DNA from: Terriglobales bacterium
GTDB lineage: Bacteria; Acidobacteriota; Terriglobia; Terriglobales; Acidobacteriaceae
Direction: 5' to 3'
Assembly: GCA_035764005.1 (NCBI GenBank)
Contig: DASTZZ010000071.1
Span: forward strand, 1 to 48,086
Length of the DNA: 48,086 nucleotides
Shown here one piece after another: positions 25,794 to 44,725 of the stretch; positions within the stretch are counted from its first letter, which is position 1; each line of letters starts with the position of its first letter. The notes beneath the pieces are model-generated. The model was not told the DNA's origin. It saw only the letters and a list, made by a program, of their open reading frames with translations, and searched no databases. Made by a program: the position numbers and the translations under genes.

Positions 25794-25822
25794 AAAAAAG
25801 CGCGGAATAAATCCGCGCTTTT
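25794..25822 (-). terminator. Terminator of the ribosomal gene cluster
   Basis: The 7-bp stem GCGCGGA/TCCGCGC (25800-25818) has a 5-nt loop; on the minus strand TTTTTT follows, and on the plus strand TTTT, so it can work in both directions between the convergent ICMT-like gene and rplQ. It starts about 20 nt after the rplQ stop. A second stem CCCGGCC/GGCCGGG lies at 25763-25778. The loop region (GGATTTATTCC) resembles the 23704 hairpins. Confidence 0.85.
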
Positions 25823-25842
25823 GAAATGAAATAAACTGAAGC

Positions 25843-26346
25843 TTACTCGGACTTGTTCTCGCCTTCGCCCGCTGCGGGACCACCGCTGGCTTCAATGTTG
25901 GCTTGCTGTTCCTGCATCGCCTTTTCCATCTCCTCGCGCCGCTTGGCGCGCAGCTCGGCACGCTTTTCGCGACGCTCGTCGAGAATCTTTTCCGAGCCGA
26001 TCAGCTCGATGAAGGCTTTTTCGCCTCCATCGCCTTTGCGAAAACCGGTGCGGATGATGCGCAGATATCCGCCACTGCGATCGCCGTACCGCGGAGCTAC
26101 TTCGGCGAAGAGCCGATCGACGGCTTCCCGCGAAGTGAGAAACGATGCTGCCGAACGGCGAGCAGCTACGTCGCCCCGCTTGCCGAAGGTGATCATCTTT
26201 TCCACGTGCGGACGCATCGCTTTCGCTTTTGCGACCGTCGTCTCGATTCGCTCTTCGAGAATCAGCGAGCTCACCAGGTTGCGCAGCAGCGCGCGCCGAT
26301 GGCTGGTGTTACGTCCTAGTTTCCAGGTTGCTTTCAGGTGACGCAT
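25843..26346 (-). CDS. rplQ: 50S ribosomal protein L17
   Basis: Last gene of the cluster, 167 residues. [24 protein letters not shown] is the family start, with [19 protein letters not shown] next; the core ends near 120. L17 binds 23S rRNA near the tunnel exit. The last 45 residues ([20 protein letters not shown]) are a charged helix beyond the usual 116-130 residues. It follows rpoA after a 250-bp spacer with repeats, and a terminator follows. Confidence 0.96.
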
Positions 26347-26391
26347 GGTGTTGTCCTAAGCCTTGCTGTAGTTTGCGACCGCTCTGGAGCG

Positions 26392-26592
26392 GGCTTTCGG
26401 CTGTCGGCGTTCGGCCACTAACCCGCATGGCAGAACCTCACGAGAACCTATGTTGCCGAGTGATCCTACTTTGAAACTGAACTTCTCTTGAAACTGAGCT
26501 TCGAATTTTGAAAATCAGTTTCGGAGCATCTGCCCTCGACATTCAGCTACGGACGGTTGCTGGCCGAAAGCCGAATGCCGAGTGCCGAATGC
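26392..26592. repeat. rpoA-rplQ spacer: WTTCGGC word arms plus a GAAACTGA cluster
   Basis: GCTTTCGGCTGTCGGCGTTC (26392-26411) pairs with the words GCCGAAAGCCGAATGCCGAG at 26562-26581. Inside lie GAAACTGAACTTC, TTGAAACTGAGCTTC and AATCAGTTTC (26473-26522), a second nested element. The outer words are those of the rpsN-rpsH spacer. There is no U-run. Confidence 0.6.
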
Positions 26593-26598
26593 CTGTTT

Positions 26599-27672
26599 TC
26601 AGAACGTCCCTGCCGGTTCATCGTCTTCCAGATCGTCTTCCGGCGTGCGATATGTTCCAGCGAGAACGGCAGCTGGAGCCTGGCTCGTTGGACCTGGCAC
26701 GGCGTTTCCGTGCTCATCGATCTTCATGCCCAAGCTCAGTCCCATCTGCGCGAGGATCTCTTTGATCTCGTTCAGCGACTTGCGCCCGAAGTTCTTCGTC
26801 TTCAGCATCTCGGCTTCGGACTTCTGTACCAGCTCGCCAATCGTCTGAATGTTCGCGTTCTTCAGGCAGTTGTAGCTGCGGACCGAGAGCTCCAGCTCCT
26901 CGACCGAACGATTGAGATTCTCGTTGCGAATCTCGGGCTTGCGATCGTCCGCTCCTTCGGTTTCGAGCTCTTCCTCGAAGTTGATGAAGATGTTCATATG
27001 ATCTTTCAACAACTTCGCCGAGAGGCCGATGGCATCTGCCGGAGCTACTGCGCCGTTGGTCCAGACTTCGAGCGTGAGCTTGTCATAATCTGTGATCTGT
27101 CCCAGACGCGCGGCTTCGACGGTGTAGTTGCATTTGCGCACCGGCGAGTGGACGGAATCAATAGGAATGAAGCCCAGTCCGAGGTCTTCGTCGAAATTCT
27201 TGTCGGCAGAGACATAGCCGCGTCCGCGCTTCAGACGCATTTCCATGTCAACTTTGCCTCCTTCGCTCACTGTGGCGATGTACACATCCTTGTCGAGGAT
27301 CTCGACATCACCGTCGGCTTCGATCATGCCGGAGGTGATCACGCCTGGCTGGTCGGTCTTCAGGTAGATCGCCTTGGGATTTTCGCTGTTCAACTTGAAT
27401 GGAACCTGCTTGAGATTCAGGATGATGTCGGTGGCGTCTTCGACGACCCCTGGAATCGACTGAAACTCGTGCAGAACGCCCTCAATGCGGACCGCAGTAA
27501 TTGCAGCACCTTCAATCGAGGAGAGCAGAACGCGACGGAGCGCGTTTCCAATAGTGGTTCCGAATCCACGCTCAAACGGCTGTGCGTAAAACTTGCCGTA
27601 CTTATCGGTGAGCGTGTCGGTGTCAGCGGCGAGCCGCTTCGGTTTTTGAAATCCCTTCCAGAGCATGTTCAT
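26599..27672 (-). CDS. rpoA: DNA-directed RNA polymerase subunit alpha
   Basis: 357 residues. The N-terminal assembly domain (1-230) includes [20 protein letters not shown] then LRRVLLSS. The C-terminal domain (about 255-325) has [20 protein letters not shown] and [15 protein letters not shown], the part that touches UP elements and activators. The last 30 residues are acidic and Pro/Ala-rich. Its position between rpsD and rplQ is conserved in bacteria. Confidence 0.98.
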
Positions 27673-27786
27673 TGTCCTTTTCTGTTAATTCAGTGAGCTG
27701 AAGTTTCCTGCGCGGCTAATGCGTCGCGAAGCATTCTGCGGCGGCCACGCCGTGGTTCCCTTTCGAGTTAGTCAGTTTTGTTTTGG

Positions 27787-27864
27787 ATTGAACACGGAGG
27801 TCACGGAGGACTCAGAGGAAACAATCGAAATCCTTCGTGTTCCTCCGTGACCTCCGTGTTCAAT
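27787..27864. repeat. rpsD-rpoA spacer: perfect 24-bp inverted repeat
   Basis: ATTGAACACGGAGGTCACGG plus AGGA (27787-27810) has an exact reverse complement at 27841-27864, with a 30-nt loop. The words are 9-mers around CACGGAGGT. It begins 8 nt after the rpsD stop codon and is related to the 25615-25752 element. The hairpin lacks a U-tract on either side. Confidence 0.85.
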
Positions 27865-27872
27865 TCCGCTTT

Positions 27873-28502
27873 TTACTTCGAATACAATTCGACGATCAAC
27901 TGTTCGTTGACCGGCAGATTGATGTCTTCCCGTTTCGGGAGAGCCGTGACTCTTCCCTTGTAGTTGTCACGATCGACTTCCAACCAGTTCACTGCCGGCT
28001 GATGGCTCGTAAATTCTTTCGCGATCTCCAGCACTGTCATCTTCTTACTGTTATCCCGCACCACGATCTCTTCACCGACCGCAACCTGGTACGAGGGAAT
28101 GTTCACCTTGCGTCCATTTACCGCAACGTGTCCGTGACGAACAAGCTGGCGAGCCTGGCGACGCGAAATCGCGAAGCCCAGGCGATAGACCACGTTGTCG
28201 AGACGACGTTCGAGCTGCTCCAGCAGCTTGGCGCCGGTTACGCCTTTGGCGCGGGAGGCTTTCTCGAAGTAGTTGCGGAACTGCTTTTCCAGCGTGAAGT
28301 AGATGCGCTTGGTCTTCTGCTTCTCGCGGAGCTGGAGACCGTAGCCAACGACTTTGGCTTTGCGATCTTTTCCATGCTGTCCGGGAGCGAAGTTGCGCTT
28401 CTCGACTGGGCACTTATCGCTGAAGCACTTGGTGCCCTTGAGAAAGAGTTTCATGCCTTCGCGTCGGCAAAGGCGGCAAACTGGTCCTTTATAACGTGCC
28501 AT
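27873..28502 (-). CDS. rpsD: 30S ribosomal protein S4
   Basis: 209 residues. The N-terminal Cys9, Cys12, Cys26 and Cys31 (VCRLC, KCFSDKC) form the zinc-finger version of S4. The S4 RNA-binding domain is near 95-160 ([23 protein letters not shown]). S4 nucleates 16S assembly and in many bacteria represses its own operon. GGAG stands 5 nt before the ATG. It follows rpsK after a repeat-filled 210-bp spacer. Confidence 0.98.
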
Positions 28503-28619
28503 TGTTTCTCCAAACCTCGGGTTGTTGTGATCGGTTTACAGGCGGCATTGCCCTTCGTCCCGATCCAGCTTTCCTAAGCACCCTGAACGCTTCTTAGTTG
28601 TTCAGGCTACTTTCCTCTT

Positions 28620-28702
28620 GTCATTCCGAGCGTAGCGAGGAATCCCTACTGTACCCATGCCGTTTCGTGGCTATAGGGATTCCTCGCTACGCTCGGAATG
28701 AC
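28620..28702. repeat. rpsK-rpsD spacer: perfect 29-bp inverted repeat of the GTCATTCCGA family
   Basis: The left arm (28620-28648) begins GTCATTCCGAGCGTAGCGAG and ends AATCCCTA; the right arm at 28674-28702 is its exact reverse complement, with a 25-nt loop. It begins 10 nt after the rpsK stop codon. The rplF-rplR spacer carries a second member. A smaller stem CCTGAAC/GTTCAGG lies at 28582-28606. Confidence 0.9.
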
Positions 28703-28712
28703 AAACAAAAAC

Positions 28713-29150
28713 CTACACTCGTCTCCGCTTCGGCGGACGGCATCCGTTGTGCGGAATCGGCGTCACGTCGCGGATCATGCGCACTTCGATGCCAGCCGCT
28801 GCGAGAGCGCGGATTGCGGATTCGCGTCCCGATCCGGGGCCGCTCACGCGAACGTCAACCGAGCGCATGCCGTGATCGCGCGCCTGATTGGCTGCGTTCA
28901 TCGCTGCCTGCTGCGCGGCGAACGGAGTCCCTTTTCGGGAACCGCGGAAGCCGAGCGATCCGGAGCTCTTCCACGACACCACCTTACCCTCATTATCTGT
29001 GATGGTGATGATGGTGTTGTTGAATGAAGCCTGAATGTGCGCCAGCCCAAACGGCACATTCTTGCGTTCTTTTTTCTTGAACTGCTTCTTCTTGCCTGTT
29101 TTCTTTTCGGGCGCTGCCGCGCCGCCTGCTGCTGCTGCCGGTTTTGCCAT
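28713..29150 (-). CDS. rpsK: 30S ribosomal protein S11
   Basis: 145 residues. The core from about 33 ([20 protein letters not shown]) to the terminal [11 protein letters not shown] is standard. The first 32 residues are an Ala/Lys-rich extension ([17 protein letters not shown]). S11 forms part of the platform and the E-site. It starts 2 bp after rpsM with coupled translation. Confidence 0.98.
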
Positions 29151-29152
29151 GG

Positions 29153-29539
29153 TTATGTCTTCGCCGCCGCTTTCTTCTTGTTCGCTACCGTGCCCTTGCG
29201 CGGACCTTTGCGCGTGCGGGCGTTGGTGTGCGTGCGCTGTCCGCGCACCGGGAGGTTGCGGCGATGACGGAATCCGCGATAGGAGCCGATCTCGATGAGC
29301 CGCTTGATGTGCATCGACGTGTCCTTCCGCAGATCGCCTTCGACGTTGCCCTCCGCTTCGATCACCTGACGGATGCGATTGACCTCGTCTTCGTTTAGGT
29401 CCTGGACCTTCTTGTCAGGCTCGACCTTCGCGGTGGCGAGAATGCGCGCCGAACGCGGATTGCCGATGCCGTAGATGTAAGTGAGCGCGATGTTCACGTG
29501 CTTGTTGCGCGGAAGATCGACGCCTGCAATGCGTGCCAT
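29153..29539 (-). CDS. rpsM: 30S ribosomal protein S13
   Basis: 128 residues from [20 protein letters not shown] to a basic tail ([20 protein letters not shown]) that reaches the P-site tRNA. The head protein forms intersubunit bridges. AAGGA 9 nt before the ATG overlaps the end of rpmJ. Confidence 0.98.
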
Positions 29540-29545
29540 AGTTAC

Positions 29546-29659
29546 TTATCCTTGACGCTGCTTATGCTTTGAGTTTTCGCAGATCACGCGCACCACTCCG
29601 CGGCGGTGGATGATCTTGCACTTATCGCAAATCTTCTTAACTGATGCTCTGACCTTCAT
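29546..29659 (-). CDS. rpmJ: 50S ribosomal protein L36
   Basis: 37 residues, read directly from the minus strand: [20 protein letters not shown], then [17 protein letters not shown]. Cys11, Cys14, Cys27 and His32 are the zinc ligands, so this is the zinc-type L36. It lies between infA and rpsM, its usual place, 6 bp before rpsM. Confidence 0.97.
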
Positions 29660-29664
29660 AAAAC

Positions 29665-29758
29665 AAGCTGCTAAGCTGCTCAGCTTCTGAGCTGCTTAGC
29701 TAAATCCCCTTTTGGTATCCAGGCTGCCAGCTCAGAAGCTCAGCAGCTTAGGAGCTTA
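29665..29758. repeat. infA-rpmJ spacer: AGCTNCTNAGCT word palindrome
   Basis: AAGCTGCTAAGCTGCTCAGC (29665-29684) continues with TTCTGAGCT. The right arm at 29729-29758 is AGCTCAGAAGCTCAGCAGCT plus TAGGAGCTTA and pairs over about 30 nt with two or three mismatches. It overlaps the infA stop codon and ends 6 nt before the rpmJ start. The same words recur in the fusA-tuf spacer. Confidence 0.8.
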
Positions 29759-29974
29759 CTTATACCGATAAACAATCCGGCCGCGGTTCAGGTCGTACGG
29801 TGATAGCTCTACAGCGACGCGGTCGCCGGGCAGGATCTTGATGAAATTTTTTCGCATACGTCCGGAAACATGGGCGAGAACTTGATGCTTGTTCTCCAGC
29901 TCGACCCGGAACATTGCATTGGGCAGCGGCTCTAGAACCACCGCCATTACTTCAATCGCGTCTTCTTTGCTCAA
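29756..29974 (-). CDS. infA: Translation initiation factor IF-1
   Basis: 72 residues, an OB-fold ([20 protein letters not shown] to RGRIVYRYK) that occupies the A-site during initiation. The start codon is TTG, with AAGGA 5 nt upstream; no in-frame ATG or GTG fits. It lies between map and rpmJ. The stop codon is part of the following repeat element. Confidence 0.97.
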
Positions 29975-30016
29975 TCAGTTCCTTAGCTGCCGACTTTCTG
30001 TCAGCAGCTTGAAATT

Positions 30017-30769
30017 CTATGCCGTCAAAACTACAGGTCCATCTTTGGTGACCGCCACCGAGTGCTCGAAGTGAGCGCTCAGACTTCCATCCACGGTCAC
30101 GGCTGTCCACTTGTTGTCGAGCAGTCGCGTGTCCGGCCTGCCGACATTCACCATCGGTTCAATCGCGAGCACCATGCCTTCGCGCAATCTCGGACCGTGT
30201 CCCCGTGTTCCGTAATTGGGAACCTGCGGCTCTTCGTGCAGCCTGGTTCCAATCCCGTGTCCGACAAATTCTCGGACTACGCTGAAACCATTAGCTTCGA
30301 CCATCTCCTGCACGCTCGCGCCGACATCCCCGACCGTACTGCCAATGCGCGCCGTCTGAATCGCACGCTCCAGGGAAGCCTTAGTAACATCCAGCAGCTT
30401 CTTAATCTCCGGCTTCAGGTGGTTCCCGATCGGGACCGTCACAGCCGAATCCGCGTAGTAGCCGTCGAGCACTACGCCGCAGTCGATCGAAACGATGTCG
30501 CCTTCCTTCAGCATGCGCTTAGCGGAAGGAATGCCGTGTACGATCTCCTGATTCACCGAGGTGCAGAGCACACAAGGGTAATCGTAATAACCCTTGAACG
30601 CCGGCTTGGCTCCGAGCTCATCGATCTTGGCCGCAGCCACAGACTCAAGATCCATGGTGCTAATGCCCGGCTTCACTGCCGCCACTGTCGCGTCGAGAAC
30701 CTGCCGAACGATGCGCCCACTGCGACGCATTTTCTCAATTTCAGCCGGCGACTTGCACATAATGGCCAT
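30017..30769 (-). CDS. map: Methionine aminopeptidase, type I
   Basis: 250 residues. Metal ligands Asp96, Asp107, His171, Glu204 and Glu235 (SIDCGVVLDGYYADSAV, GHGIG, IEPMV, EHSVAV) and His79 are all present. It removes the initiator Met from new proteins. The usual place after secY is kept, but adk is missing between them. The Shine-Dalgarno is weak, and the 300-bp spacer upstream could hold an internal promoter (TATAAT at about 30915-30920 on the minus strand, -35 unclear). Confidence 0.97.
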   Translation of the reverse strand: MAIMCKSPAEIEKMRRSGRIVRQVLDATVAAVKPGISTMDLESVAAAKIDELGAKPAFKGYYDYPCVLCTSVNQEIVHGIPSAKRMLKEGDIVSIDCGVVLDGYYADSAVTVPIGNHLKPEIKKLLDVTKASLERAIQTARIGSTVGDVGASVQEMVEANGFSVVREFVGHGIGTRLHEEPQVPNYGTRGHGPRLREGMVLAIEPMVNVGRPDTRLLDNKWTAVTVDGSLSAHFEHSVAVTKDGPVVLTA

Positions 30770-30921
30770 CAGGCCACACTCTCAAAAAATGCAGGATTCC
30801 GCATAGGCTCGTTTCCTCGTCGGAGAACGGCATCGGAACCATTAGGCTTGAGATGATCGTTGCTGCCGCGGGCGGGACAAGAACGACGTCCAGAGAGCCG
30901 TTGCAGTCTTTGATTATAACT

Positions 30922-31063
30922 GAGCTGCCAGCTTCCAGCTACCAGCTTCCAGTCGAACCCAACAGCAAAACCAGCTGCCCAACCAGCGATCTCCTGAAAA
31001 CGAGCCACGCAGCCAGCGGAACCTGAACTTGGCTGGTAGCTGGCAGCTGGTAGCCGGCAGCTT
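30922..31063. repeat. secY-map spacer: CCAGCTN word palindrome
   Basis: GAGCTGCCAGCTTCCAGCTA (30922-30941) continues as CCAGCTTCCAGT. The right arm GGCTGGTAGCTGGCAGCTGG (31031-31050) continues as TAGCCGGCAGCTT, pairing over about 33 nt with seven mismatches. It starts 5 nt after the secY stop. The remaining 150 bp to map contain no gene or adk remnant that I can see. Confidence 0.7.
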
Positions 31064-31067
31064 CCTC

Positions 31068-32465: not shown

Positions 32466-32481
32466 GGTGAATCAAACATCC

Positions 32482-32925: not shown

Positions 32926-32949
32926 TGTGTTTCCTACGAACTCTTCAGG

Positions 32950-33038
32950 GCTGCTGGCCGCTGGCTGCCGGCTTCCGGCTAAAGCCTGAAAAACTTCAGG
33001 ACTTAGCCAGAAGCCAGTAGCCAAGAGCCAGAAGCCGC
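32950..33038. repeat. rpmD-rplO spacer: CTGGCTNN word palindrome
   Basis: GCTGCTGGCCGCTGGCTGCC (32950-32969) plus GGCTTCCGGCTAA pairs with TTAGCCAGAAGCCAGTAGCC (33003-33022) plus AAGAGCCAGAAGCCGC. The words are 7-8 nt around GGCTTC. It starts 1-2 nt after the rpmD stop codon and is related to the CCAGCTN family. Confidence 0.7.
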
Positions 33039-33039
33039 C

Positions 33040-33249: not shown

Positions 33250-33252
33250 GGA

Positions 33253-33765: not shown

Positions 33766-33770
33766 GTTGA

Positions 33771-34145: not shown

Positions 34146-34229
34146 AATTCTTAGTTCAACAGCTTCGCCGCTGTCGAATCCCTTTCCTTCGCAACGTTCT
34201 GTGCGCCGCGATGAAATTGCATTTGCTTT

Positions 34230-34310
34230 GTCATTCCGACCGAAGGGAGGAATCCCTACTGAACCATACATCTGGGTGAGGTAGGGATTCCTCACTTCGT
34301 TCGGAATGAC
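34230..34310. repeat. rplF-rplR spacer: 30-bp inverted repeat of the GTCATTCCGA family
   Basis: The left arm at 34230-34259 starts GTCATTCCGACCGAAGGGAG and ends AATCCCTAC; the right arm at 34281-34310 pairs over 30 nt with two mismatches. It uses A/C and G/T where the rpsK-rpsD copy has G and C, while the fixed words stay the same. It begins 24 nt after the rplF stop. Confidence 0.88.
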
Positions 34311-34334
34311 AGGTCTTCGGACTGACGGCCTGCG

Positions 34335-34874: not shown

Positions 34875-34885
34875 AAATTCCTCGA

Positions 34886-34943
34886 TAGCTTCTAACTGTT
34901 AGCTTCTGGCCGCTAGCAGTTAATGGCTAGTAGCTGGCAGCTA
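34886..34943. repeat. rpsH-rplF spacer: TAGCTTCTN palindrome
   Basis: TAGCTTCTAACTGTTAGCTT (34886-34905) with CTGGCCGCTAGC pairs roughly with GCTAGCAGTTAATGGCTAGT (34912-34931) plus AGCTGGCAGCTA. It runs over the rpsH stop codon and stops 12 nt before the rplF start. The words belong to the AGCT-rich group. Confidence 0.6.
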
Positions 34944-35339: not shown

Positions 35340-35409
35340 TCTTATCTCCTCTTCAACGTTTCGCGTTATCTCCAATGCTGGAGAACCAGTTCCGAAACGG
35401 TACTGCACT

Positions 35410-35487
35410 GGCATTCGGCATTCGGCACTCAGCATTCGGCTTGAACCTGAGCTGTTGCCGAGTGCTGATTGCCGACTGCCGAATGCC
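35410..35487. repeat. rpsN-rpsH spacer: WTTCGGC word palindrome
   Basis: GGCATTCGGCATTCGGCACT (35410-35429) plus CAGCATTCGGC pairs with GCCGAGTGCTGATTGCCGAC (35457-35476) plus TGCCGAATGCC, 28 of 31 positions. Words are 7-8 nt. It begins 6 nt after the rpsN stop. The same word family forms the outer arms of the rpoA-rplQ spacer. Confidence 0.82.
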
Positions 35488-35718: not shown

Positions 35719-35759
35719 GCAATCCTTAAAACTCTCTGTGTTAACTCTGGATCTGAACT

Positions 35760-36305: not shown

Positions 36306-36307
36306 AA

Positions 36308-36637: not shown

Positions 36638-36650
36638 GATCGTAAAACCT

Positions 36651-36746
36651 GTTTCGAGTTTCCAGTTTCAAGTTTCGGCAAAGCCAGTTCCTTACAGTGA
36701 TGCTGAGATCAGGCTTTGCCGAAACTTGAAACCTGAAACTCGAAAC
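36651..36746. repeat. rplN-rplX spacer: GTTTC word palindrome, 35-bp arms
   Basis: GTTTCGAGTTTCCAGTTTCA (36651-36670) plus AGTTTCGGCAAAGCC pairs with GGCTTTGCCGAAACTTGAAA (36712-36731) plus CCTGAAACTCGAAAC at 33 of 35 positions, with a 26-nt loop. It starts 4 nt after the rplN stop. A sister element with the same GGCAAAGCC end lies in the rplP-rpmC spacer. Confidence 0.88.
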
Positions 36747-36750
36747 TGTC

Positions 36751-37122: not shown

Positions 37123-37153
37123 ATCTTTTGACTCCTTCCAATCGCCTGCATTT

Positions 37154-37229
37154 GCGATTGGCGATAGGCGATAGGCGGTACGCAATAGGCTTTCTGTTTA
37201 TCGCCTATCGCTTATTGCCTATTGCCGCC
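37154..37229. repeat. rpsQ-rplN spacer: GCGATAG heptamer palindrome
   Basis: GCGATTGGCGATAGGCGATA (37154-37173) plus GGCGGTACGCAATAGGC faces TCGCCTATCGCTTATTGCCT (37201-37220) plus ATTGCCGCC. Words are seven nt. A perfect stem CCAATCGC/GCGATTGG (37138-37161) overlaps it. It starts 2 nt after the rpsQ stop. Confidence 0.78.
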
Positions 37230-37231
37230 TG

Positions 37232-37555: not shown

Positions 37556-37598
37556 ATTGAAACTCTCTCCTCATCCCGCTCACGCGGGAGCGCGAAGA

Positions 37599-37979: not shown

Positions 37980-37988
37980 TTAGAACCT

Positions 37989-38109
37989 GTTTCAAGTTTC
38001 GCGTTTCCGGTTTCGGCAAAGCCAGATGCGACCTTCATTCCCGAGCCTTGGCTTCGTTCAAACTGTTTCGGACTGGCTTGGCCGAAACTCGAAACCTGAA
38101 ACTCGAAAC
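37989..38109. repeat. rplP-rpmC spacer: GTTTC word palindrome, 37-bp arms
   Basis: GTTTCAAGTTTCGCGTTTCC (37989-38008) plus GGTTTCGGCAAAGCCAG pairs with CTGGCTTGGCCGAAACTCGA (38073-38092) plus AACCTGAAACTCGAAAC with six mismatches over 37. The loop is 47 nt. It starts 10 nt after the rplP stop and ends 9 nt before the rpmC start. It is related to the rplN-rplX element. Confidence 0.82.
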
Positions 38110-38119
38110 GCCTTTCTCC

Positions 38120-38533
38120 CTAGTGTCCTTCGCGCGCCACGAACTTGGTTCGCAGCGGCAGCTTGTGCGAGGCGAGACGCAACGCTTCTTGAGCGTCCGT
38201 GCGGGTCACGCCTTCCATCTCAAACAGCACTTTGCCTGGACGAACGACGGCGACCCAGTGATCCGGCGCGCCTTTGCCTTTGCCCATACGGGTTTCGGCG
38301 GGCTTCTTCGTCACCGGCTTATCCGGAAACAGGCGCAGCCAGATTTTGCCGCCGCGTTTGACGAAGCGCGTCATAGCAACACGGCTGGCTTCGATCTGCC
38401 GGTCGGTGATGTAGCCGCACTCGAGGACCTTCAGTCCGTAATCACCGAAAGAGAGCTCGGAACCGCGCCAGGCTTTACCCGCCATGCGTCCGCGCTGCTG
38501 CTTGCGGTACTTAACTTTTTTCGGCATCAACAT
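38120..38533 (-). CDS. rplP: 50S ribosomal protein L16
   Basis: 137 residues from [20 protein letters not shown]. The core has [20 protein letters not shown] and [20 protein letters not shown], the peptidyl-transferase-proximal loop. AAGG stands 9 nt before the ATG at 38533; the second Met (38527) is less likely. It lies between rpsC and rpmC, each spaced by a repeat element. Confidence 0.98.
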
Positions 38534-38570
38534 GATGAATTGCCTTTTTGGGAATACTCCCCTTTACTCA

Positions 38571-38643
38571 ATTTCGCGATTTCGTGATTATGTGATTTCG
38601 TGATTTGCAATCGCGAAATCACGAAATCGGGAAATCACGAAAT
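38571..38643. repeat. rpsC-rplP spacer: GATTTCGYG octamer palindrome
   Basis: ATTTCGCGATTTCGTGATTA (38571-38590) plus TGTGATTTCGTGATTTGC faces GCAATCGCGAAATCACGAAA (38607-38626) plus TCGGGAAATCACGAAAT. Words are 8 nt. It starts 3 nt after the rpsC stop. Sister elements stand in the rplB-rpsS and rplW-rplB spacers. Confidence 0.82.
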
Positions 38644-38646
38644 TCC

Positions 38647-39312
38647 TTAGAACGCCGTCGCCGCTACGTGCGGCTCGCGCTTCTTCTGCGACAGAATCTC
38701 GCCTTTGTAGATCCAGGTCTTCACTCCGATTACGCCATAGGTGGTGCGCGCTTCGGTGAATCCGTACTCGATATCTGCACGGAGCGTGTGCAGCGGCAGA
38801 CGTCCTTGCAAATACCACTCCGAGCGCGCGATTTCGTTTCCGTTCAGACGGCCCGAAACTCGAACTTTGATTCCCTTACATCCGAAGCGCAGTGCCGAAT
38901 CGACACTCTTGCGCATGGCGCGACGGAATCCCACGCGTTTCTCAAGCTGCAGCGCGATCGACTCAGACACAAGCTGAGCGTCGAGCTCCGGCTTGTGCAC
39001 CTCCTGGATGTCGATGAAGACATCGCGGCTCGTGCGCTTCTGCAGTTCGATCTTGAGCTTGTCGATCTCAGCGCCTTTGCGTCCGATGATGATTCCCGGA
39101 CGTGCGGTTTTGATGATGATGCGCAGCTTGTTGCCGGGACGCTCGATCTCGATCGAGCTCACGCCCGCCGACTTCAGCTTGTCCTTCAGCTCCTTCTTGA
39201 GCTTCACGTCTTCAAGCAGCAGCTTGTCGTAATCGCGCTCCACGAACCAGCGCGACTTCCACGGTTTGGTGTAGCCGAGCCGGAATCCGTAGGGATGTAC
39301 TTTTTGACCCAT
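38647..39312 (-). CDS. rpsC: 30S ribosomal protein S3
   Basis: 221 residues. [20 protein letters not shown] starts it; the KH domain has [14 protein letters not shown] (GRKG at 77-80), and the C-terminal half has [20 protein letters not shown]. Together with S4 and S5 it lines the mRNA entry channel. AAGGA 5 nt before the ATG, 2 bp after rplV. Confidence 0.98.
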
Positions 39313-39314
39313 AC

Positions 39315-39803
39315 CTATCCTTTCGCCGTCGCTTTCTTCGAGGCGGATTTCTTCTTCGCCGCTTTGCGTGGAGCGCGCCGCTTCGCCGTCGTTCCAGTTT
39401 CTTCGCCGACTACTGTGGCAGCGCCATTGGCTCCAGCGCGCAGACGCTCGGCCACAGCGATCTCGATGTGCGCCATGCGTCGCTGATAGCGGTACGCGCG
39501 TCCCATCGGTGCCGGACGGATACGCTTCATACGCGGCGCGTCATTCGCGATTGCCCGCTTCACATACAGCTGATCGACATCGACGTCAGCGCCCTTTTCC
39601 TGGCTCACATAGTTCGCATTCTCAATCGCCGACCGCAAAAGCTTGCCGATGGCGGGAGCAATTCCCTTTTTGGTAAAGAGCAGAGTGTTCATCGCCTGCT
39701 CTACCTGCTGGCCTTTAATCAGGTCCAGCACCAGGCGCGCCTTCTGCGGAGAGACTCTCTGGAAGCGCGCTTCGGCTCTGTATTCCTGTTCTGCAAAATT
39801 CAT
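39315..39803 (-). CDS. rplV: 50S ribosomal protein L22 with basic tail
   Basis: 162 residues, about 45 longer than usual. The core ([20 protein letters not shown] and the tunnel loop [20 protein letters not shown]) ends near 120. The tail ([20 protein letters not shown]) is Lys/Ala-rich. L22 lines the exit tunnel. GGAG stands 7 nt before the ATG. Confidence 0.96.
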
Positions 39804-39815
39804 GCTTCTTCTCCG

Positions 39816-40127
39816 CTATCTAGCCGACGGTGCCGGTGCCGGCTTCGCGGCGGTTTCAGTTGCAGCCGCTTTCACCGAGTGTCCTTTAAAGTTGCGCGTC
39901 TGGCTGAACTCGCCCAGCTTGTGGCCGACCATGTTCTCCGAGATGTACACCGGAATGAACTTGCGTCCGTTGTGCACGGCGATGGTGTGTCCGACCATAT
40001 CCGGGTGAATCGTCGAACGCCGCGACCACGTGCGCACGACTTTCTTATCGTTCGAGCGGTTCATCGTTTCGATCTTGACCATCAGGTGACCGTCGATGAA
40101 TGGACCTTTTTTTGTGCTTCTCGCCAT
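39816..40127 (-). CDS. rpsS: 30S ribosomal protein S19
   Basis: 103 residues from [40 protein letters not shown] and [20 protein letters not shown] are family motifs. The last 20 residues (Ala/Pro-rich) are an extension. It forms head contacts with S13. AGAAGAG before the ATG lies next to the repeat. Confidence 0.97.
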
Positions 40128-40139
40128 AATCTCTTCTCA

Positions 40140-40207
40140 ATTTCGCGATTTCGCGATTGCGTGATTGCGTGATTTGAAAATCGCGAAATCACTCATAACG
40201 AAATCAC
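40140..40207. repeat. rplB-rpsS spacer: GATTTCGYG octamer palindrome
   Basis: ATTTCGCGATTTCGCGATTG (40140-40159) plus CGTGATTGCGTGATTT faces AAATCGCGAAATCACTCATA (40178-40197) plus ACGAAATCAC. The words match the rpsC-rplP and rplW-rplB spacers. It starts 6 nt after the rplB stop. Confidence 0.8.
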
Positions 40208-40213
40208 CCGATC

Positions 40214-41038
40214 CTATTTGCTTCTCCGCGCCACAATGAATTTGTCAGTGCGCTTGTTATTGCGCGTCTTGTATCCGCGTGTGGGCTGTCCCCACGGAGT
40301 CACAGGATGACGTCCGCCGGAGGTCTTGCCTTCACCACCACCGTGCGGGTGATCGACCGGGTTCATCGCCACACCGCGGTTCACCGGACGACGTCCCAGC
40401 CAGCGCTTACGACCGGCCTTGCCGATCGAGACGTTCTCATGGTCGGTGTTGCCTACCTGCCCAATCGTCGCCATGCAGTCGATGAGGATCTTGCGCGTCT
40501 CACCGGAAGGCAGCTTGATCAGCGCGTAGTCGCCTTCTTTCGCGACCAACTGAGCGGCGCCGCCCGCCGAGCGCACCATCTGCGCGCCTTTACCGGGCTT
40601 CAGCTCGATGTTGTGCACCGTCGTGCCGGCTGGGATATTGCGCAACGGCAGGGCATTGCCGACGAGGATGTCAGCCTCTGGCCCGCTCACGATTTTCTGC
40701 CCAACCTGCAATCCCACGGGCTGCAGGATGTAGCGCTTCTCGCCATCGGCGTACGACAGCAAAGCGATACGCGCGGAGCGGTTGGGATCGTATTCGATCG
40801 AGGCGACAGTCGCCGGAACGCCAGCCTTGTCGCGCTTGAAGTCGATGATGCGGACCTTGCGCTTATGTCCTCCGCCACGATGCCAGCTCGTCAAGTCTCC
40901 CGAGTTGCGGCGCCCACCGGTGCGCAGCTTGATCTCGGTCAACGCCTTGTGCGGACGGTTAGTCGTGATCTCGTCGTTAACCAGCGTGGTCTTGAAACGC
41001 AGCGACGGAGTAAGCGGTCTGTATGTCTTAATCGGCAT
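40214..41038 (-). CDS. rplB: 50S ribosomal protein L2
   Basis: 274 residues from [20 protein letters not shown]. The C-terminal [20 protein letters not shown] includes the conserved His near the peptidyl-transferase centre. It is the largest primary 23S binder. The Shine-Dalgarno is weak, and the spacer before it is a repeat element. Confidence 0.98.
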
Positions 41039-41048
41039 GAGCTAAACC

Positions 41049-41113
41049 ATTTCGTGATTTCGCGATTGTGTGATTTCAAATCACGAAATCGCGAAATCAC
41101 CCAATCACGAAAT
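41049..41113. repeat. rplW-rplB spacer: GATTTCGYG octamer palindrome
   Basis: ATTTCGTGATTTCGCGATTG (41049-41068) plus TGTGATTT faces AAATCACGAAATCGCGAAAT (41078-41097) plus CACCCAATCACGAAAT; the loop is only 1 nt (41077), giving an almost closed hairpin. It starts 6 nt after the rplW stop. Third copy of this family. Confidence 0.85.
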
Positions 41114-41119
41114 TTCTTT

Positions 41120-41461
41120 CTACGCGTTATCCGCGTATTCCGGCATCTTCTCGCCTACTTTGAGGCGAACGTATGCCTTCTTCCAATCCGGACGGTGTCC
41201 GGCGAATTTGCCGCGGCGGCGTTCTTTGCCGTGGAAGTTCGCAGTGCGAACGTCCTCCACTTTCACTTTAAACACCTGCTGCACGGCCTGCTTGATTTCA
41301 GTCTTGGTCGCCTTGGCAGCCACTTCGAATACCAACTGGCCGGAGGTAGCTTCCTTCTTGCGCGAAGTCTTGTCCTTCGCCGCCTTAGGATCGAACTCTT
41401 TCGCGCGCTCGGCCTTTTCCGTGACTACGGGACGGCGGATGATCTCGTATGCAGATTTCAC
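41120..41461 (-). CDS. rplW: 50S ribosomal protein L23
   Basis: 113 residues. KSAYEIIRRPVVTEKAERAK is the family start, and RRRGKFAGHRPDWKKAYVRL the conserved arm. It lies at the tunnel exit and docks trigger factor and SRP. The GTG start overlaps the rplD stop by one base (TAGTG), so translation is coupled. Confidence 0.96.
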   Translation of the reverse strand: MKSAYEIIRRPVVTEKAERAKEFDPKAAKDKTSRKKEATSGQLVFEVAAKATKTEIKQAVQQVFKVKVEDVRTANFHGKERRRGKFAGHRPDWKKAYVRLKVGEKMPEYADNA

Positions 41462-42135
41462 TAGGCCACCTCCGCCTTCTGCCGCTTGGAGACGGTCTTC
41501 TTGAGCGTCTCCTGCAACTGCTCGATCGCCGGGCGCGAGAAGATGGCGCGGTCATAGCGCAGCAGATGATAAGGATGGACTTCGTGTCCGGCCACGAGTT
41601 CGACGCCATCCAGATTCCGCGAGCTCAGATAGAGATTGCGGCTGTGCTGGCGGTTTTCCGGATTCAGGTTGGCCACCAGCAGCGAAGTCTTTTCGACTCC
41701 CAGTGTATCCAGGGCCTTGCGCATCTCTTTGGTTTTGCCGGAGAGCACTTCGAGGCTTTCGACGACCGTTAACTTGCCGTCAGAGAGCTTGCTCGCGAGC
41801 GCAGAGCGCAAAGCGCCCAGCAGTTTCTTTTTGGGAAACTGATAATCGTAGCTGCGCGGCTGAGGTCCGTGAACGGTTCCGCCGTGGCGCCAAAGAGGCG
41901 AGCGGATCGAACCCACTCGGGCACGTCCGGTGCCTTTCTGCTTCCACAGCTTCTTGCCCGAACCTGAAACCAGCTTCTTGTTCTTGGTGGCATGCGTACC
42001 TGCGCGCTGAGCCGCACGATAGTGCTGCACCGCCTCCCACAGCAAGTCTTCGTTAATTACGCCGAAGACCTCATCTGCCAGCTCGAAGCTGCCGACTTTC
42101 TTGCCGTTCAGATCTAAAACGTCAACTTTTGCCAT
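41461..42135 (-). CDS. rplD: 50S ribosomal protein L4
   Basis: 224 residues. The extended tunnel loop KKLWKQKGTGRARVGSIRSP and the body LGALRSALASKLSDGKLTVV match. L4 lines the exit tunnel and, in some bacteria, attenuates the S10 operon; no leader was identified here. It follows rplC by 2 bp and overlaps rplW by 1. Confidence 0.98.
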   Translation of the reverse strand: MAKVDVLDLNGKKVGSFELADEVFGVINEDLLWEAVQHYRAAQRAGTHATKNKKLVSGSGKKLWKQKGTGRARVGSIRSPLWRHGGTVHGPQPRSYDYQFPKKKLLGALRSALASKLSDGKLTVVESLEVLSGKTKEMRKALDTLGVEKTSLLVANLNPENRQHSRNLYLSSRNLDGVELVAGHEVHPYHLLRYDRAIFSRPAIEQLQETLKKTVSKRQKAEVA

Positions 42136-42137
42136 GG

Positions 42138-42908
42138 CTATTTCTTGGCCTTTCCGGCAGCGGCCTTCTTCGCGGCCTTCAGAGGATCGACCGTAGTCGC
42201 GCCCGCGAATCCACGACGCTCACGCGGCGGCTGCTTGGCCTTGTTGATCACAACGTATCCGCCTTTGGGACCGGGCACTGCGCCTTCGACCATCAGCAGG
42301 TTGTCTTCAAGATCGATACCCAGGATGCGCAGATTGCGAACGGTGCACTGATCGACCCCCATGTGGCCGGACATGCGCTGGCCAGGGAAGGTGCGCGACG
42401 GAAACGACGATGCGCCGATCGAACCCTGCACTTGGAACATGTGTCCGTGCGATTTAGGACCACCGCCGAAGTGGTGGCGGCGAACAACGCCCGCGAATCC
42501 GCGTCCCTTGCTCGTGCCGGTTACATCGACAAACTTTTCGTCCTGGAAGATATCGACCAGAACCTTGTCACCAACTTTGACTTGTCCGTTGGTTTCGGCT
42601 GCGGGATTCTCGCCTTTCGCTTGCTTCTCACCTGCTTCGCCGGGAGTCGTGACTGCGACTTCCTTCATGAATTTCACCGGCGGCAGATTATGCTTGCCAA
42701 AGTGTCCCTGCATCGCCTTGGTGACGCGCTTCCCTTTCACGAACTCGATGAGTCCGATCTGCACAGCGTCGTAGCCATCACGCGCGGCATTCTTGCGCTG
42801 CGTGATCACGCACGGGCCAGCCTGCAGCACTGTAATAGGACGAATCTCGCCCCTATCGTCGAAGAGCTGCGTCATGCCGACTTTCTTTCCTAGAATTCCT
42901 GAAACCAT
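42138..42908 (-). CDS. rplC: 50S ribosomal protein L3, extended
   Basis: 256 residues, about 45 more than usual. [20 protein letters not shown] starts it. [20 protein letters not shown] forms the tip loop; Gln found in the E. coli methylation motif is not conserved here. The C-terminal 35 residues (Ala/Lys-rich) are an added tail. It has an acidic insert near 85-105 ([20 protein letters not shown]). Confidence 0.97.
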
Positions 42909-42957
42909 TTCTTTACCGACTCCTCATCATCCCGTATATGGGACTGTAGGTATTTTG

Positions 42958-43275
42958 TTACTTGCCGAACGCCTTGATCTCAACATCCACACCTGCGGGC
43001 AGGTCGAGCTTCATCAATGCATCGACCGTCTGCTGCGTGGGATCGAGGATGTCGAGCAGCCGCTTGTGCGTGCGAATCTCGAAGGCCTCGCGGGATTTCT
43101 TATCGACGTGCGGCGAACGCAGCACGCAGTACTTGTTCTTGATCGTCGGCAGCGGGATCGGTCCTGCTACCTGCGCTCCGGTGCGACGTGCTGTTTCCAC
43201 GATCTCTCCAGTTGACTGGTCAAGAACGCGGTAGTCATAAGCCTTCAACCGGATGCGTATTCGTTGTCCTACCAT
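42958..43275 (-). CDS. rpsJ: 30S ribosomal protein S10 (NusE)
   Basis: 105 residues from [20 protein letters not shown]. The tip loop [20 protein letters not shown] and [20 protein letters not shown] are standard. S10 also acts in transcription antitermination with NusB. It follows tuf after a 194-bp repeat-rich spacer. Confidence 0.98.
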
Positions 43276-43329
43276 TTTTGTCTCTCAAAGATCTGCTGCG
43301 GTCTGTGCCGCTGCGTGGTTCAAAACTTG

Positions 43330-43463
43330 GTTTCAATAAATTCGTTTCAGATAAACCGTTTCGAGTACTGCGTTTCAGGAAACTGCGTTTCAACTTCACT
43401 TCGCTTTCGGTGTTGAAACGCCTCAGCCGAAACGCCTTTCTGAGAAACGCCTCTCTTGAAACG
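43330..43463. repeat. tuf-rpsJ spacer: period-14 GTTTC/GAAACG palindrome
   Basis: Five GTTTC(A/G) words start at 43330, 43344, 43358, 43372 and 43387, and four GAAACG words at 43415, 43429, 43444 and 43458; spacing is 14-15 nt. The two blocks are complementary, so one long stem with regular bulges can form. It starts 6 nt after the tuf stop. Same core word as the rplN-rplX and rplP-rpmC elements. Confidence 0.85.
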
Positions 43464-43469
43464 CTTCTT

Positions 43470-44657
43470 CTAAGCGAGGATTTCGCTAATCGTTCCTGCA
43501 CCCACAGTTCGGCCGCCTTCGCGGATCGCGAACCTGAGTCCCTTCTCCATAGCTACCGGCGTGATCAGCTCGATCACCAGTGCCACGTTGTCGCCGGGCA
43601 TCACCATCTCTGTTCCGGCGGGCAGTTCGGCTACTCCGGTTACGTCCGTCGTTCTGAAGTAGAACTGTGGACGATAACCTTTGAAGAACGGCGTATGACG
43701 TCCACCTTCTTCCTTGGTCAGCACGTAGACTTCAGCTTTGAACTTGGTGTGGGGCGTGATCGATCCAGGCTTCGCCAGCACCATGCCGCGCTCCACGTCT
43801 TCTTTCGCAGTCCCGCGGAGCAACAGTCCGGCGTTGTCGCCGGCCATGCCTTCGTCGAGCTGCTTCTTGAACATCTCGACTCCGGTTACGACCGTCTTTC
43901 TGGTCTCACGGAAACCGACGATTTCCACTTCCTCGCCGACCTTCACCTTGCCGCGCTCGATTCGGCCGGTAACCACAGTTCCACGGCCTGAGATCGAGAA
44001 GATATCTTCGATCGGCATCAGGAATGGCTTGTCCACATCACGCGCTGGCAGCGGTACATTCTTATCGACGGCTTCCATCAGCTCGTCGATCGTCTTTTCC
44101 CACTTGGCTTCGCCATTGAGCGCTCCAAGCGCTGAGCCGCGAATGACCGGCAAGTTGTCGCCCGGGAACTGATACTTATTCAGCAGTTCGCGAACTTCGA
44201 CTTCCACCAGATCGATCAGCTCAGGATCTTCAACCGCATCGCACTTATTGAGAAACACCACGATGTACGGCACGCCAACTTGACGAGCGAGCAGCACGTG
44301 CTCCTTCGTCTGTGGCATCGGACCATCGGTCGCCGCCACGACTAAGATGGCGCCGTCCATCTGTGCCGCGCCGGTGATCATGTTCTTGATGTAGTCGGCG
44401 TGGCCCGGGCAGTCGACGTGCGCATAGTGCCGATTCGGCGTCTCGTACTCGACGTGCGCGGTCGCGATCGTGATTCCGCGCTCGCGCTCTTCAGGAGCGT
44501 TATCGATCGAATCAAACGAGCGGAACTGGATCTTCGGGTTGTGCTTCGAGAGCACCTTCGTGATCGCGGCCGTCAACGTCGTCTTGCCGTGATCGATATG
44601 CCCAATCGTGCCCACGTTCACGTGCGGCTTGCTGCGGTCAAATTTCTCTTTCGCCAT
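43470..44657 (-). CDS. tuf: Elongation factor Tu
   Basis: 395 residues. G1 GHIDHGKTT (19-27), DCPGH (82-86) and NKCD (137-140) are intact, followed by the beta-barrel domains 2 and 3 ([20 protein letters not shown]; ending [18 protein letters not shown]). It delivers aminoacyl-tRNA. It follows fusA in the str order. AGGAG 9 nt before the ATG is part of the AGCTCCTAAGC repeat upstream. Confidence 0.99.
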
Positions 44658-44666
44658 TGAAATAAG

Positions 44667-44701
44667 CTCCTAAGCTGCTTAGCTTCTTAGCTCCTAAGCT
44701 G
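44667..44701. repeat. fusA-tuf spacer: AGCTCCTAAGC array containing the tuf ribosome-binding site
   Basis: AAGCTCCTAAGCTGCTTAGC (44667-44686 region) continues as TTCTTAGCTCCTAAGCTG. Words are the same as in the infA-rpmJ spacer. On the minus strand CTAAG-CAG-CTTAG can pair just before the AGGAG that serves tuf, so the repeat could modulate EF-Tu translation. Confidence 0.7.
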
Positions 44702-44725
44702 AACTCGTTAACTCGTACTCCCAAA

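Follow-up and report, generated by a model that had tools for sequence, protein, structure and literature searches.

What fills the long spacers of a ribosomal-protein cluster when nearly all of them appear to hold an inverted repeat made of 7–9 nt words? The question is raised by a soil Acidobacteriota genome (Terriglobales bacterium, assembly GCA_035764005.1), in a window comprising the 48,086 nucleotides of contig DASTZZ010000071.1 analyzed here. Gene order and spacer lengths were confirmed. Seventeen cluster spacers exceed 55 bp, the same set in which the initial annotation had seen inverted repeats throughout. Fourteen of the 17 fold with z ≤ −3 (200 dinucleotide shuffles each), against 3 of 102 length-matched coding stretches with z below −3 (60 shuffles each). 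The three above the cut-off are fusA-tuf (z 0.04), rplB-rpsS (z −1.5), and rpsH-rplF (z −0.64). A tandem-array scan finds 7–9 nt arrays in 11 cluster spacers, all from that set and including fusA-tuf and rplB-rpsS. Either fold or word array supports 16 of the 17; rpsH-rplF is seen by eye only. The companion claim, that spacers below about 50 bp are empty, fails at map-infA (42 bp, z −4.28) and, weakly, at rpmC-rpsQ (z −2.30). The reading that we favor, with a probability of about one half, is that the spacers hold several dispersed families of short palindromic DNA elements, REP/MITE-like and built of words that consist of a core plus linkers.

The elements of the window are about 50–190 bp long and are given here on the minus strand. 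Family A, with 8-nt GATTTCGN words, occupies rplW-rplB (41049–41114; fold, palindrome, dispersed copies), rplB-rpsS (40139–40207, upper limit by eye; array scan, dispersed copies), and rpsC-rplP (38570–38644, 8-nt words and a 3-nt loop; fold, palindrome, array, dispersed copies). Family B (GTTTCNN, 7 nt) is found with an inner arm in rplP-rpmC (37989–38109) and again in rplN-rplX (36651–36746), both supported by fold, palindrome, and dispersed copies, the latter also by an alignment with other genomic relatives of almost full length. Family C (TCGGCNN, 7 nt) forms the rpsN-rpsH element (35410–35487) and the arms, around a long loop, of the rpoA-rplQ element (26397–26593). Family D is present as CTGGCTN words in rpmD-rplO (32949–33036) and as CAGCTNC words in secY-map (30923–31062), both 7 nt. 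Family E (AGCTNCTN, 8 nt) lies in infA-rpmJ (29665–29757) and family H (GGCRATA, 7 nt) in rpsQ-rplN (37154–37225). All the elements of families C, D, E, and H are supported by fold, palindrome, and array. Family F (GTCATTCCGA..GGAATCCCTA), REP-like and with no word array, is found in rplF-rplR (34229–34311; fold, palindrome, dispersed copies) and in rpsK-rpsD (28618–28704), where copy alignment with near-full-length relatives elsewhere adds to the same evidence. Family G, with 9-nt CACGGAGGN words, lies in rpsD-rpoA (27787–27864; fold, palindrome, sequence). The remaining spacers hold a single array of 8-nt AGCTNAGN words with a weak fold (fusA-tuf, 44663–44700), an element of GGCGTTTC or GAAACGC words (tuf-rpsJ, 43329–43465, limits by eye; z −3.57), degenerate AGCT/TAGC-like words in the weakest case (rpsH-rplF, 34875–34940), and a short inverted repeat, AGCTGCTGAC..GTCGGCAGCT, that had escaped the initial annotation (map-infA, 29975–30016).

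The word families had been described as unrelated to each other, but not all of them differ. By eye, GATTTCGN words are found at three cluster sites, GTTTC at three, TTCGGC at two, AGCTNCTN-type words at two, and CAGCTNC/CTGGCTN words at two or three; the wordless REP-like element (GTCATTCCGA) is at two sites, and CACGGAGGN and GGCRATA words are at one each. Moreover, the three elements searched in the whole genome all belong to dispersed families. The rplN-rplX element has relatives at 13 other places (at least 80 of 96 bases, 75–86% identity), the rpsC-rplP element at more than 20 (at least 60 of 77 bases, best 94% over 67; 40 of 66 candidates scored), and the rpsK-rpsD element at no fewer than 15 (at least 80 of 87 bases, 77–87%; 40 of 96 candidates scored). 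Among the matches scored for these three, none exceeds 94% identity across the greater part of its element. In the alignment of family B copies, GTTTC and the inner GGCAAAGCC arm are retained and the next two positions vary; one family G element has a family F element nested in it. As extragenic palindromes in many copies, the elements share this trait with REPs of the GTAG/RAYT type. Elements lie between codirectional, convergent, and divergent genes alike.

The cluster is nevertheless a preferred place: arrays are found at 11 of 32 junctions there and at 30 of 700 elsewhere, in a non-random sample of 1.38 of the 5.10 Mb and with gene calls outside the cluster from our own simple finder, which merges infA-rpmJ-rpsM, shifts some starts, and yields 17 cluster spacers of 55–400 bp that are not exactly the 17 of the fold test. 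The spacer shuffles of the genome palindrome survey and of the period survey were first-order Markov resamples. Neutral insertion alone does not predict this enrichment. Nine of ten proteins flanking five array spacers outside the cluster matched a family, all ordinary (amidase, DUF6599, PilZ, IleRS-type synthetase, signal peptidase II, DeoC-type aldolase, aldehyde dehydrogenase, FtsX-like permease, and ABC ATPase); thus, arrays are not confined to ribosomal operons.

The architecture of the words is uniform. Of 339 arrays in the window and its relatives, 334 are built of 7- or 8-nt words (period 7, 280; period 8, 54); here, as in the word, arm-pair, stop/start-position, and paired/unpaired border-array counts, identical spacers were counted once, and many loci repeat the same genome. 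Words consist of a conserved core and free positions (mismatch clustering 3394 versus 2274 ± 29), and the free positions, which sit at the same point of the word in different copies and species, show no homogenisation. The cores of the two arms are mutually reverse-complementary in 120 of 133 array pairs, against 31% at random. Among palindromes that share a core, arm orientation is equal in 554 pairs and opposite in 37; 11 of the 12 opposite pairs among those listed involve self-complementary AGCT words, and the 9-nt family GTCCAC/GTGGAC is found in both orientations (C38, C70). The initial annotation had argued from a common architecture to one kind of mechanism, and the regularities just described, together with the inverted pairs near stops at many loci of relatives, speak for it.

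Substitution rates separate core from linker. Over 32 overlapping, and so non-independent, species pairs, cores differ at 6.6%, linkers at 27.3%, the remainder of the spacers at 13.1%, and fourfold sites at 31.6%. That is, the free positions evolve near the fourfold-synonymous rate and the cores much more slowly. A looser comparison, over 399 pairs of spacers (8.4% in cores, 27.6% at free positions, and 17.7% in non-array sequence), was set aside, as some of its alignments were not orthologous.

A purely mutational origin, in which polymerase slippage with a preferred 7–8 nt step and pairing-driven conversion of the arms build the arrays with no selected function, would account for the shared period over many unrelated cores and for the word-sized indels seen by eye in close species pairs. 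Conversion among words would also keep cores uniform, and on this point the core and linker rates cannot tell. An excess of heptamers in bacteria has been ascribed to the size of the polymerase contact, in work cited by PMC4692102, as far as the available part of that paper goes. However, slippage does not explain why free positions are fixed within the word, and unhomogenised, across copies and species, why family B copies have an inner arm in common besides their words, or why complementary cores so far exceed the random level. We consider this origin unlikely.

Less likely by far is the growth of palindromes by template switching, one arm being copied from the other, which had been among the mechanisms first proposed. 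In its favor, arm complementarity is good, and an element's own arms are closer to each other than to any other copy in 3 of 4 cases in family C, 5 of 6 in F, and 5 of 16 in G; yet own arms beat the best other copy in only 0 of 7 (A), 1 of 5 (B), 1 of 4 (D), 1 of 3 (H), 0 of 8 (J), and 1 of 9 (K). The free positions of paired arms match at 46.6%, against 50.6–52.7% for arms from different elements. Null partners in the first version of this comparison matched the core more closely than observed pairs did; at equal thresholds the values are 47.1 versus 52.6% and 46.6 versus 50.6%. Recent growth of this kind thus finds no support, and the process is already disfavored to the point of being scarcely probable. 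A mirrored inverted duplication was likewise rejected, since the linkers are not mirrored between arms.

Do the palindromes act as RNA? It may be supposed that the stems shield 3′ ends, control how stable each cistron is, hold up terminating ribosomes, or join a stop to the next start for re-initiation. Positions relative to stop and start bear on such roles. The 12 codirectional cluster palindromes begin −2 to 19 nt from the stop, and the fusA-tuf element 25 nt from it; outside the cluster, 11 of 28 array spacers have their array within 12 nt of the stop, where 3.2 are expected (p about 5e-5). The closeness to the upstream stop that had been noted at the outset is thereby confirmed. With a score of 13 and all periods, 8 arrays lie in coding sequence versus 65 in codirectional, divergent, and convergent spacers. 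In favor of an RNA role, most stop-side arrays in relatives begin 0–6 nt behind the stop, and for start-side arrays the commonest end lies 3–7 nt ahead of the start; start codons there were placed by comparison with the homologous window proteins and are wrong at some sites (rplX). A Shine-Dalgarno-like tetramer is present in 29 of 147 cases that have a start-side array but in 796 of 1461 that lack one. Enrichment in the ribosomal cluster also favors such a role, and a stalling of terminating ribosomes is reported, in the available part of PMC12306157, for E. coli REPs that lie no more than 15 nt from a stop.

Pairing at the RNA level argues the other way. G-T and A-C mismatches are equally frequent in the window's own elements (54:58), in relatives (278:285), and in cores as well (28:40). 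The same test on the conserved rpsH leader RNA (within 35340–35409), which lies beside but outside the rpsN-rpsH palindrome and serves as the positive control, gives 132:43, about 3:1. Because the leader structure had been chosen with G-U allowed, structure was also taken from one half and counts from the other, which gives 968:325 (3 of 20 splits were without structure). This leader is the sole control, since no consensus fold was obtained for rplX-rplE and rplF-rplR and rpsK-rpsD had only 4 G-T and 4 A-C. Leader-like conserved stretches are also seen, by eye, in some of the long spacers, before rpsH (the one tested), rpsD, rpoA, and rplR. The elements thus lack the tolerance of G-U over A-C that marks a structured RNA, and a detectable RNA-type pairing constraint is absent from them, although a very stable stem could tolerate A-C, which weakens the test. 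A stem bridging stop and start was rejected as a general rule, since Shine-Dalgarno frequency is 22% both with a paired and with an unpaired start-side array.

Nor do the stems resemble intrinsic terminators, in which a U-tract follows the stem. One of the 12 cluster palindromes, that of infA-rpmJ, has five T in the 8 nt behind the 3′ arm, as do 8 of the 64 remaining codirectional palindromes, in agreement with the early remark that most lack a U-tract, and a terminator-type scan limited to loops of 3–8 nt gives 32 matches versus 25.4 ± 4.4 in shuffles. Rfam returned 19 matches at E up to 1 for positions 25500–48086, all below gathering and nearly all to microRNA hairpin families, and these were rejected. 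Adding the elements in divergent spacers and their absence at the same junction in congeners, we hold an RNA function to be rather improbable. Protection of mRNA 3′ ends and control of cistron stability, as first proposed, are not supported as the selected function, given equal G-T and A-C counts, convergent and divergent sites, and the gain and loss of elements among congeners. A stable stem between two ribosomal-protein genes of these genomes is, on its own, no ground for calling it a terminator or a regulatory RNA.

Turnover is indeed rapid. When coding identity is 90–94%, an alignment is still possible for 10 of 61 spacers with arrays, as against 17 of 33 without; species pairs overlap here too, the 94–99.9% bin of this comparison holds few species, and identical loci were left out of it and of the rate and core-sharing comparisons. 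Elements are exchanged between close species, and the rplB-rpsS spacer measures only 5–14 bp in four of five congeners. The expectation that words would be rare in genes and biased to stops was borne out; its counterpart, that relatives would keep a palindrome at the same junction, was not, several congeners having none where the window is filled. Empty junctions exist, with flanks too diverged to define an insertion point (by eye), and no target-site duplication or clean empty site was seen. Distant genomes share cores more often at the same site (17.2%) than at different sites (8.3%), so the sites have memory; between sites of one genome the value is 15.3%. Cluster elements that are replaced so rapidly between related species look like mobile or exchangeable DNA rather than a conserved RNA hairpin.

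We therefore return to the reading of dispersed DNA elements. In most families each arm consists of 3–5 words, 7 or 8 nt long (one family has 9 nt), with a core and one to three linkers, and the second arm repeats the same core in reverse complement with linkers of its own. We infer a REP/MITE-like life, in which elements arrive, decay, and get swapped for members of other families, surviving mostly where they may do least harm, between a stop and the leader or start of the gene that follows. The core would most likely be the DNA recognition unit of a putative transposase, recombinase, or other protein; it would therefore be kept while linkers and loop drift. Some results count against this reading. 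At the threshold used, most border arrays in relatives have no partner arm (140 start-side arrays are unpaired and 49 paired, and 208 spacers have an array on the stop side only). The site memory of cores, the two orientations of the GTCCAC/GTGGAC family, and the cluster enrichment are further points against it, as is the failure to find near-identical copies of the three elements searched, a target-site duplication, or a transposase with these arms among the four Y1 genes read.

Candidates for such a protein are the genome's Y1 (RAYT/TIRYT) transposases, with the elements as ordinary REPs moved by them. The genome has 12 Y1_Tnp matches; families F, J, and K resemble classical REPs; and the available part of PMC3733652 reports, for Koribacter and Terriglobus, tyrosine transposases that have terminal repeats. 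However, the four Y1 genes with readable flanks carry other terminal repeats, none of them word arrays, and the word-array families are, by eye, without tag-plus-hairpin anatomy, so that this version is very unlikely. In the one region between two family B copies that was read, no transposase was noticed (by eye).

How do the elements compare with known repeats? In the available parts of the reports, REPs and GTAG-REPs are likewise many-copy extragenic palindromes in dispersed families, part of them directly behind stops, but they are hairpins of 20–40 bp, many with a tag (PMC3733652, PMC12306157), where the arms here are word arrays. A link to RAYTs is also missing here among the four genes read. 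Bacterial MITEs are short, non-coding, dispersed, and nested, with inverted arms. The elements share all of these traits; they differ in that no target duplication was found at the junctions compared and no autonomous partner in the flanks read, and in their poorly conserved loops.

Closest are the heptamer arrays, reported from several phyla without explanation in the available parts of PMC4692102 and PMC4679880. TAACTGA direct repeats of Beggiatoaceae, Cyanobacteria, and Bacteroidetes are heptamer arrays with one shared core (AACTGA), few Shine-Dalgarno sequences, and a presence in ribosomal-protein operons, and they adjoin start codons in the main species (PMC4679880, in part); they are direct arrays with one indirect repeat, whereas the elements here have inverted pairs, a free seventh position, and many cores. 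As far as the available text of PMC4692102 goes, Xanthomonas has GGGAATC or (GGGANTN)n and Nostoc GGGGA(C/T)T arrays; those of Xanthomonas lie a mean 28 nt from the upstream gene versus 160 nt, with 70 and 75 inverted pairs in two genomes. Shared with these arrays are 7-nt words having conserved and free positions, a mostly intergenic place nearer the upstream gene, a frequent number of four units, inverted pairs, scarcity between divergent genes, and variability between species. The 7-nt period and fixed conserved and free positions typical of Xanthomonas are indeed present. The elements are thus best read as akin to the Xanthomonas arrays, a variant of a known, unexplained kind of repeat, and no earlier description of such arrays in Acidobacteriota was found among the matches listed from the open-licence literature. 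In a single clade, many unrelated cores share one geometry, core and linker rates can be measured, and turnover is fast within an operon that is highly conserved; what makes and keeps the arrays thereby becomes testable. It is a long shot, but Terriglobales may have an enzymatic system that writes and swaps inverted word arrays at gene ends, copying a short core in 7–8 nt steps with one to three unspecified nt each, on both sides of the spacer; any core could spread while the geometry stayed fixed, and the heptamer arrays known from Xanthomonas, Nostoc, and Beggiatoaceae would then be relatives with a single core. If true, this would be an array-writing system so far undescribed.

The differences lie in the cores and their setting. 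Xanthomonas and Nostoc have one G-rich core per genome, which forms G-quadruplexes in vitro (PMC4692102, in the part available); on the Terriglobales side each genome has many unrelated cores, words may also be 8 nt long, the inner arm of one family is conserved, and arrays lie close to both stop and start. Most cores listed (TCAGC, AGCTGA, GTTTC, GTAATT) are without a run of three G, and such a run is present in the ATCGGGNN family and in ACAGGGG-type words.

The window, contig C71 of a draft genome of 5.10 Mb, encodes the str-S10-spc-alpha cluster on its minus strand. Recalculating the cluster spacers from the starts and stops of the genes returned the same 17 spacers longer than 55 bp that the initial annotation had listed. 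Its claim that all of them carry inverted repeats is borne out for 16, since either the fold test or the word scan is positive in each; the remaining one is supported by neither. Folding gave z ≤ −3 in 14 of the 17 (200 shuffles each), compared with z below −3 in 3 of 102 coding controls of matched length, and a tandem-word scan found arrays of 7–9 nt words in 11 of the 17. By eye, word families recur inside the cluster, and a REP-like element without words occupies two cluster sites.

Relatives retrieved via ribosomal protein S3 are Acidobacteriota labelled Acidobacteriaceae, Terriglobia, Candidatus Sulfotelmatobacter, Candidatus Korobacter, and similar. A scan admitting periods 5–12 found arrays at score 11 in 339 of 1608 distinct ribosomal spacers of 30–400 bp (window plus relatives), with period 7 in 280 and period 8 in 54; resampled spacers yielded 7. 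Mismatches between words concentrate at particular positions (3394 versus 2274 ± 29 permuted; 474 arrays), i.e., a word has a conserved core and free, or linker, positions. The cores of start-side arrays are the reverse complements of stop-side cores: NNTCAGC is found 18 times near stops and never near starts, and NAGCTGA twice near stops and 20 times near starts. Within one spacer, array pairs of equal period have complementary cores in 120 of 133 cases, where 31% is expected at random; 25 of the same-spacer pairs match directly as well. At free positions, the two arms of one element are 46.6% identical (n = 393), and arms from different elements 52.7% (n = 2412), or 50.6% at equal core thresholds. 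That is, arms of one element are no more alike at free positions than arms of different elements. Alignments of family B, with 7-nt GTTTCNN words, keep GTTTC and the inner GGCAAAGCC arm, the next two positions being variable and the loop showing only partial likeness among aligned copies. In a phylum-wide search, the pattern AGCTGANAGCTGANAGCTGA was matched in 26 of 247 genomes and its backward control in 6, one of these rich in pattern and control alike; the N position takes all four bases among the matches listed. The same search found no AGCTGANAGCTGANAGCTGA in the genome of the window. The distant acidobacterial genome G173 has many matches to both pattern and backward control, 22/16 and 18/12, and its array content is unusual.

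Substitution rates were taken from 62 alignable spacer comparisons in 32 species pairs, which overlap and were counted in both directions and so are not independent. In these pairs, 6.6% of core positions (114/1717) and 27.3% of free positions (59/216) are substituted; elsewhere in the spacer the figure is 13.1%, and fourfold sites reach 31.6%. Judged from these alignments, the cores are constrained or homogenised and the free positions near neutral. At 94–99.9% coding identity, 8 of 21 array spacers are still alignable versus 10 of 12 array-free spacers, and at 90–94% the figures are 10 of 61 versus 17 of 33; below 90% there is no difference. Above 90% coding identity, then, spacers with arrays disappear faster than those without. 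Between the loci L106 and L113 (91% coding identity), families differ at rplX-rplE, rplP-rpmC, rpsH-rplF, and rplR-rpsE, while the rpsN-rpsH element is the same in both and the leader flanking the rplX-rplE element is conserved. At rplX-rplE of L106, a AGCTAAGAG-type array lies within the loop of a leader hairpin that is otherwise conserved, and array-free, in L113. In the genus of the window, two genomes carry the REP-like family F at rpsK-rpsD and a third carries a different family there, and the rplB-rpsS spacer is only 5–14 bp in 4 of 5 congeners.

Stop-side arrays in relatives mostly start 0–6 nt past the stop, and start-side arrays end with a mode of 3–7 nt ahead of the start; in the window, the gap between 3′ arm and start is variable, ranging from 9 nt to over 100 nt. 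Of 28 first arrays outside the cluster, 11 begin no more than 12 nt from the stop, against an expectation of 3.2. Where a start-side array lies within 12 nt, a Shine–Dalgarno-like tetramer occurs among the final 20 nt of the spacer in 29 of 147 cases, as opposed to 796 of 1461 for the other spacers. The fraction is 44% (91/208) with a stop-side array only and 58% (791/1360) without arrays. Because it is 22% whether the start-side array is paired (11/49) or unpaired (31/140), it is this array, rather than the stem, that accompanies loss of the Shine–Dalgarno sequence.

The cluster word families are also found elsewhere in the genome, and each of three elements tested by whole-genome blast is a member of a dispersed family. 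An ungapped inverted-repeat scan of 723,776 bp gave 121 palindromes at score 26, or 167 per Mb; Markov resamples built from four contigs gave 17 per Mb. They lie in codirectional (76), convergent (19), and divergent (15) spacers and in coding calls (11), the spacer densities being 1.25, 1.19, and 0.5 per intergenic kb, respectively. Over 1,378,018 bp, arrays of period 7–9 occur in 68 spacers (46 codirectional, 12 divergent, 10 convergent), 11 of the 46 belonging to the ribosomal cluster; when the score was made stricter, just 8 arrays, all periods counted, fell inside coding calls. The cluster is enriched in arrays: 11 of 17 codirectional spacers of 55–400 bp versus 27 of 396 elsewhere (Fisher p = 8e-9), and 11 of 32 codirectional junctions versus 30 of 700 (p = 2e-7). 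At C10:6901–7157 of this genome, a perfect 57-bp inverted arm consists of an outer CACGGAG array and an inner GTCATTCCGA element; the elements are nested, with both arms intact.

If pairing of the transcript is under selection, G-U should be tolerated over A-C. In sense orientation, the G-T:A-C ratio is 54:58 in the 76 codirectional elements of this genome and 278:285 in 330 elements of relatives' spacers (219:219 in 240 stricter ones); the convergent and divergent elements of this genome give 16:30. It is 28:40 within cores and 72:68 within free positions. The test has power, since the rpsH leader adjoining the rpsN-rpsH palindromes (window 35340–35409, plus relatives) shows a G-T excess of 132:43 in 83 sequences. 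This leader RNA is conserved and covaries: all nine of its pairs show at least two Watson–Crick types, and when one half of the sequences supplied the structure and the other half the counts, the ratio is 968:325 over 20 splits. Nothing in window 25500–48086, this leader included, matched Rfam at gathering score. Weak selection may hide behind a very long stem in this test.

Dispersed families, cores that appear constrained with linkers near neutral, non-mirrored arms, occurrence in all gene orientations, same-site replacement, and the lack of RNA-type constraint point to the arrays being DNA elements with a recognised core. The proposal includes putative mobility and a putative partner protein. 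As to the enrichment in the ribosomal cluster, promoter-free junctions within operons may simply tolerate insertions. Distant genomes, however, have cores in common in 17.2% of cases at the same site and in 8.3% at different ones; among the sites within a single genome the figure is 15.3%. This site memory between distant genomes argues for something beyond random insertion.

Counted per locus, arrays are common within the window's own family, with 0–4 per locus in five congeners and 0–8 in 15 other genera; in the window's genome, 11 of the 22 spacers of at least 30 bp carry them. In other families, 4 of 20 loci have arrays (G037, G051, G056, and G057). Five isolate loci (L117, L121, L124, L126, and L132) have none. 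The anatomy is partly that of repeats described in the literature: inverted pairs of (GGGANTN)n arrays near upstream genes in Xanthomonas (PMC4692102), TAACTGA arrays ahead of starts, ribosomal operons included (PMC4679880), GTAG REPs along with acidobacterial transposases that bear terminal repeats (PMC3733652), and REPs within 15 nt of stops, for which ribosome stalling is cited (PMC12306157). Unlike those repeats, the arrays here have many cores per genome, cores that are paired and complementary, and placement at both gene borders.

Leader-like stretches, with limits set by eye, precede rpsD (GATCGGGACGAAGGGC..CCTGTAAACCGATC; window 28503–28600), rpoA (27673–27780), and rplR (34146–34220); by eye, all three are conserved in congeners while the adjoining palindrome changes. 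The secY-map spacer (window 30770–30900) looks by eye like an adk remnant. Many relatives have 700–900 bp between secY and map with adk-like sequence inside; this genome and two congeners have just a short stretch that resembles it. Y1 transposase genes at loci L174, L177, and L179 and at C17:16516 are bounded by long terminal inverted repeats that belong to two other families and are candidate TIRYT-type elements. In the congener L137 (sequence same as L104), the rpsK-rpsD spacer is 632 bp and may hold a reading frame inserted within the alpha operon.
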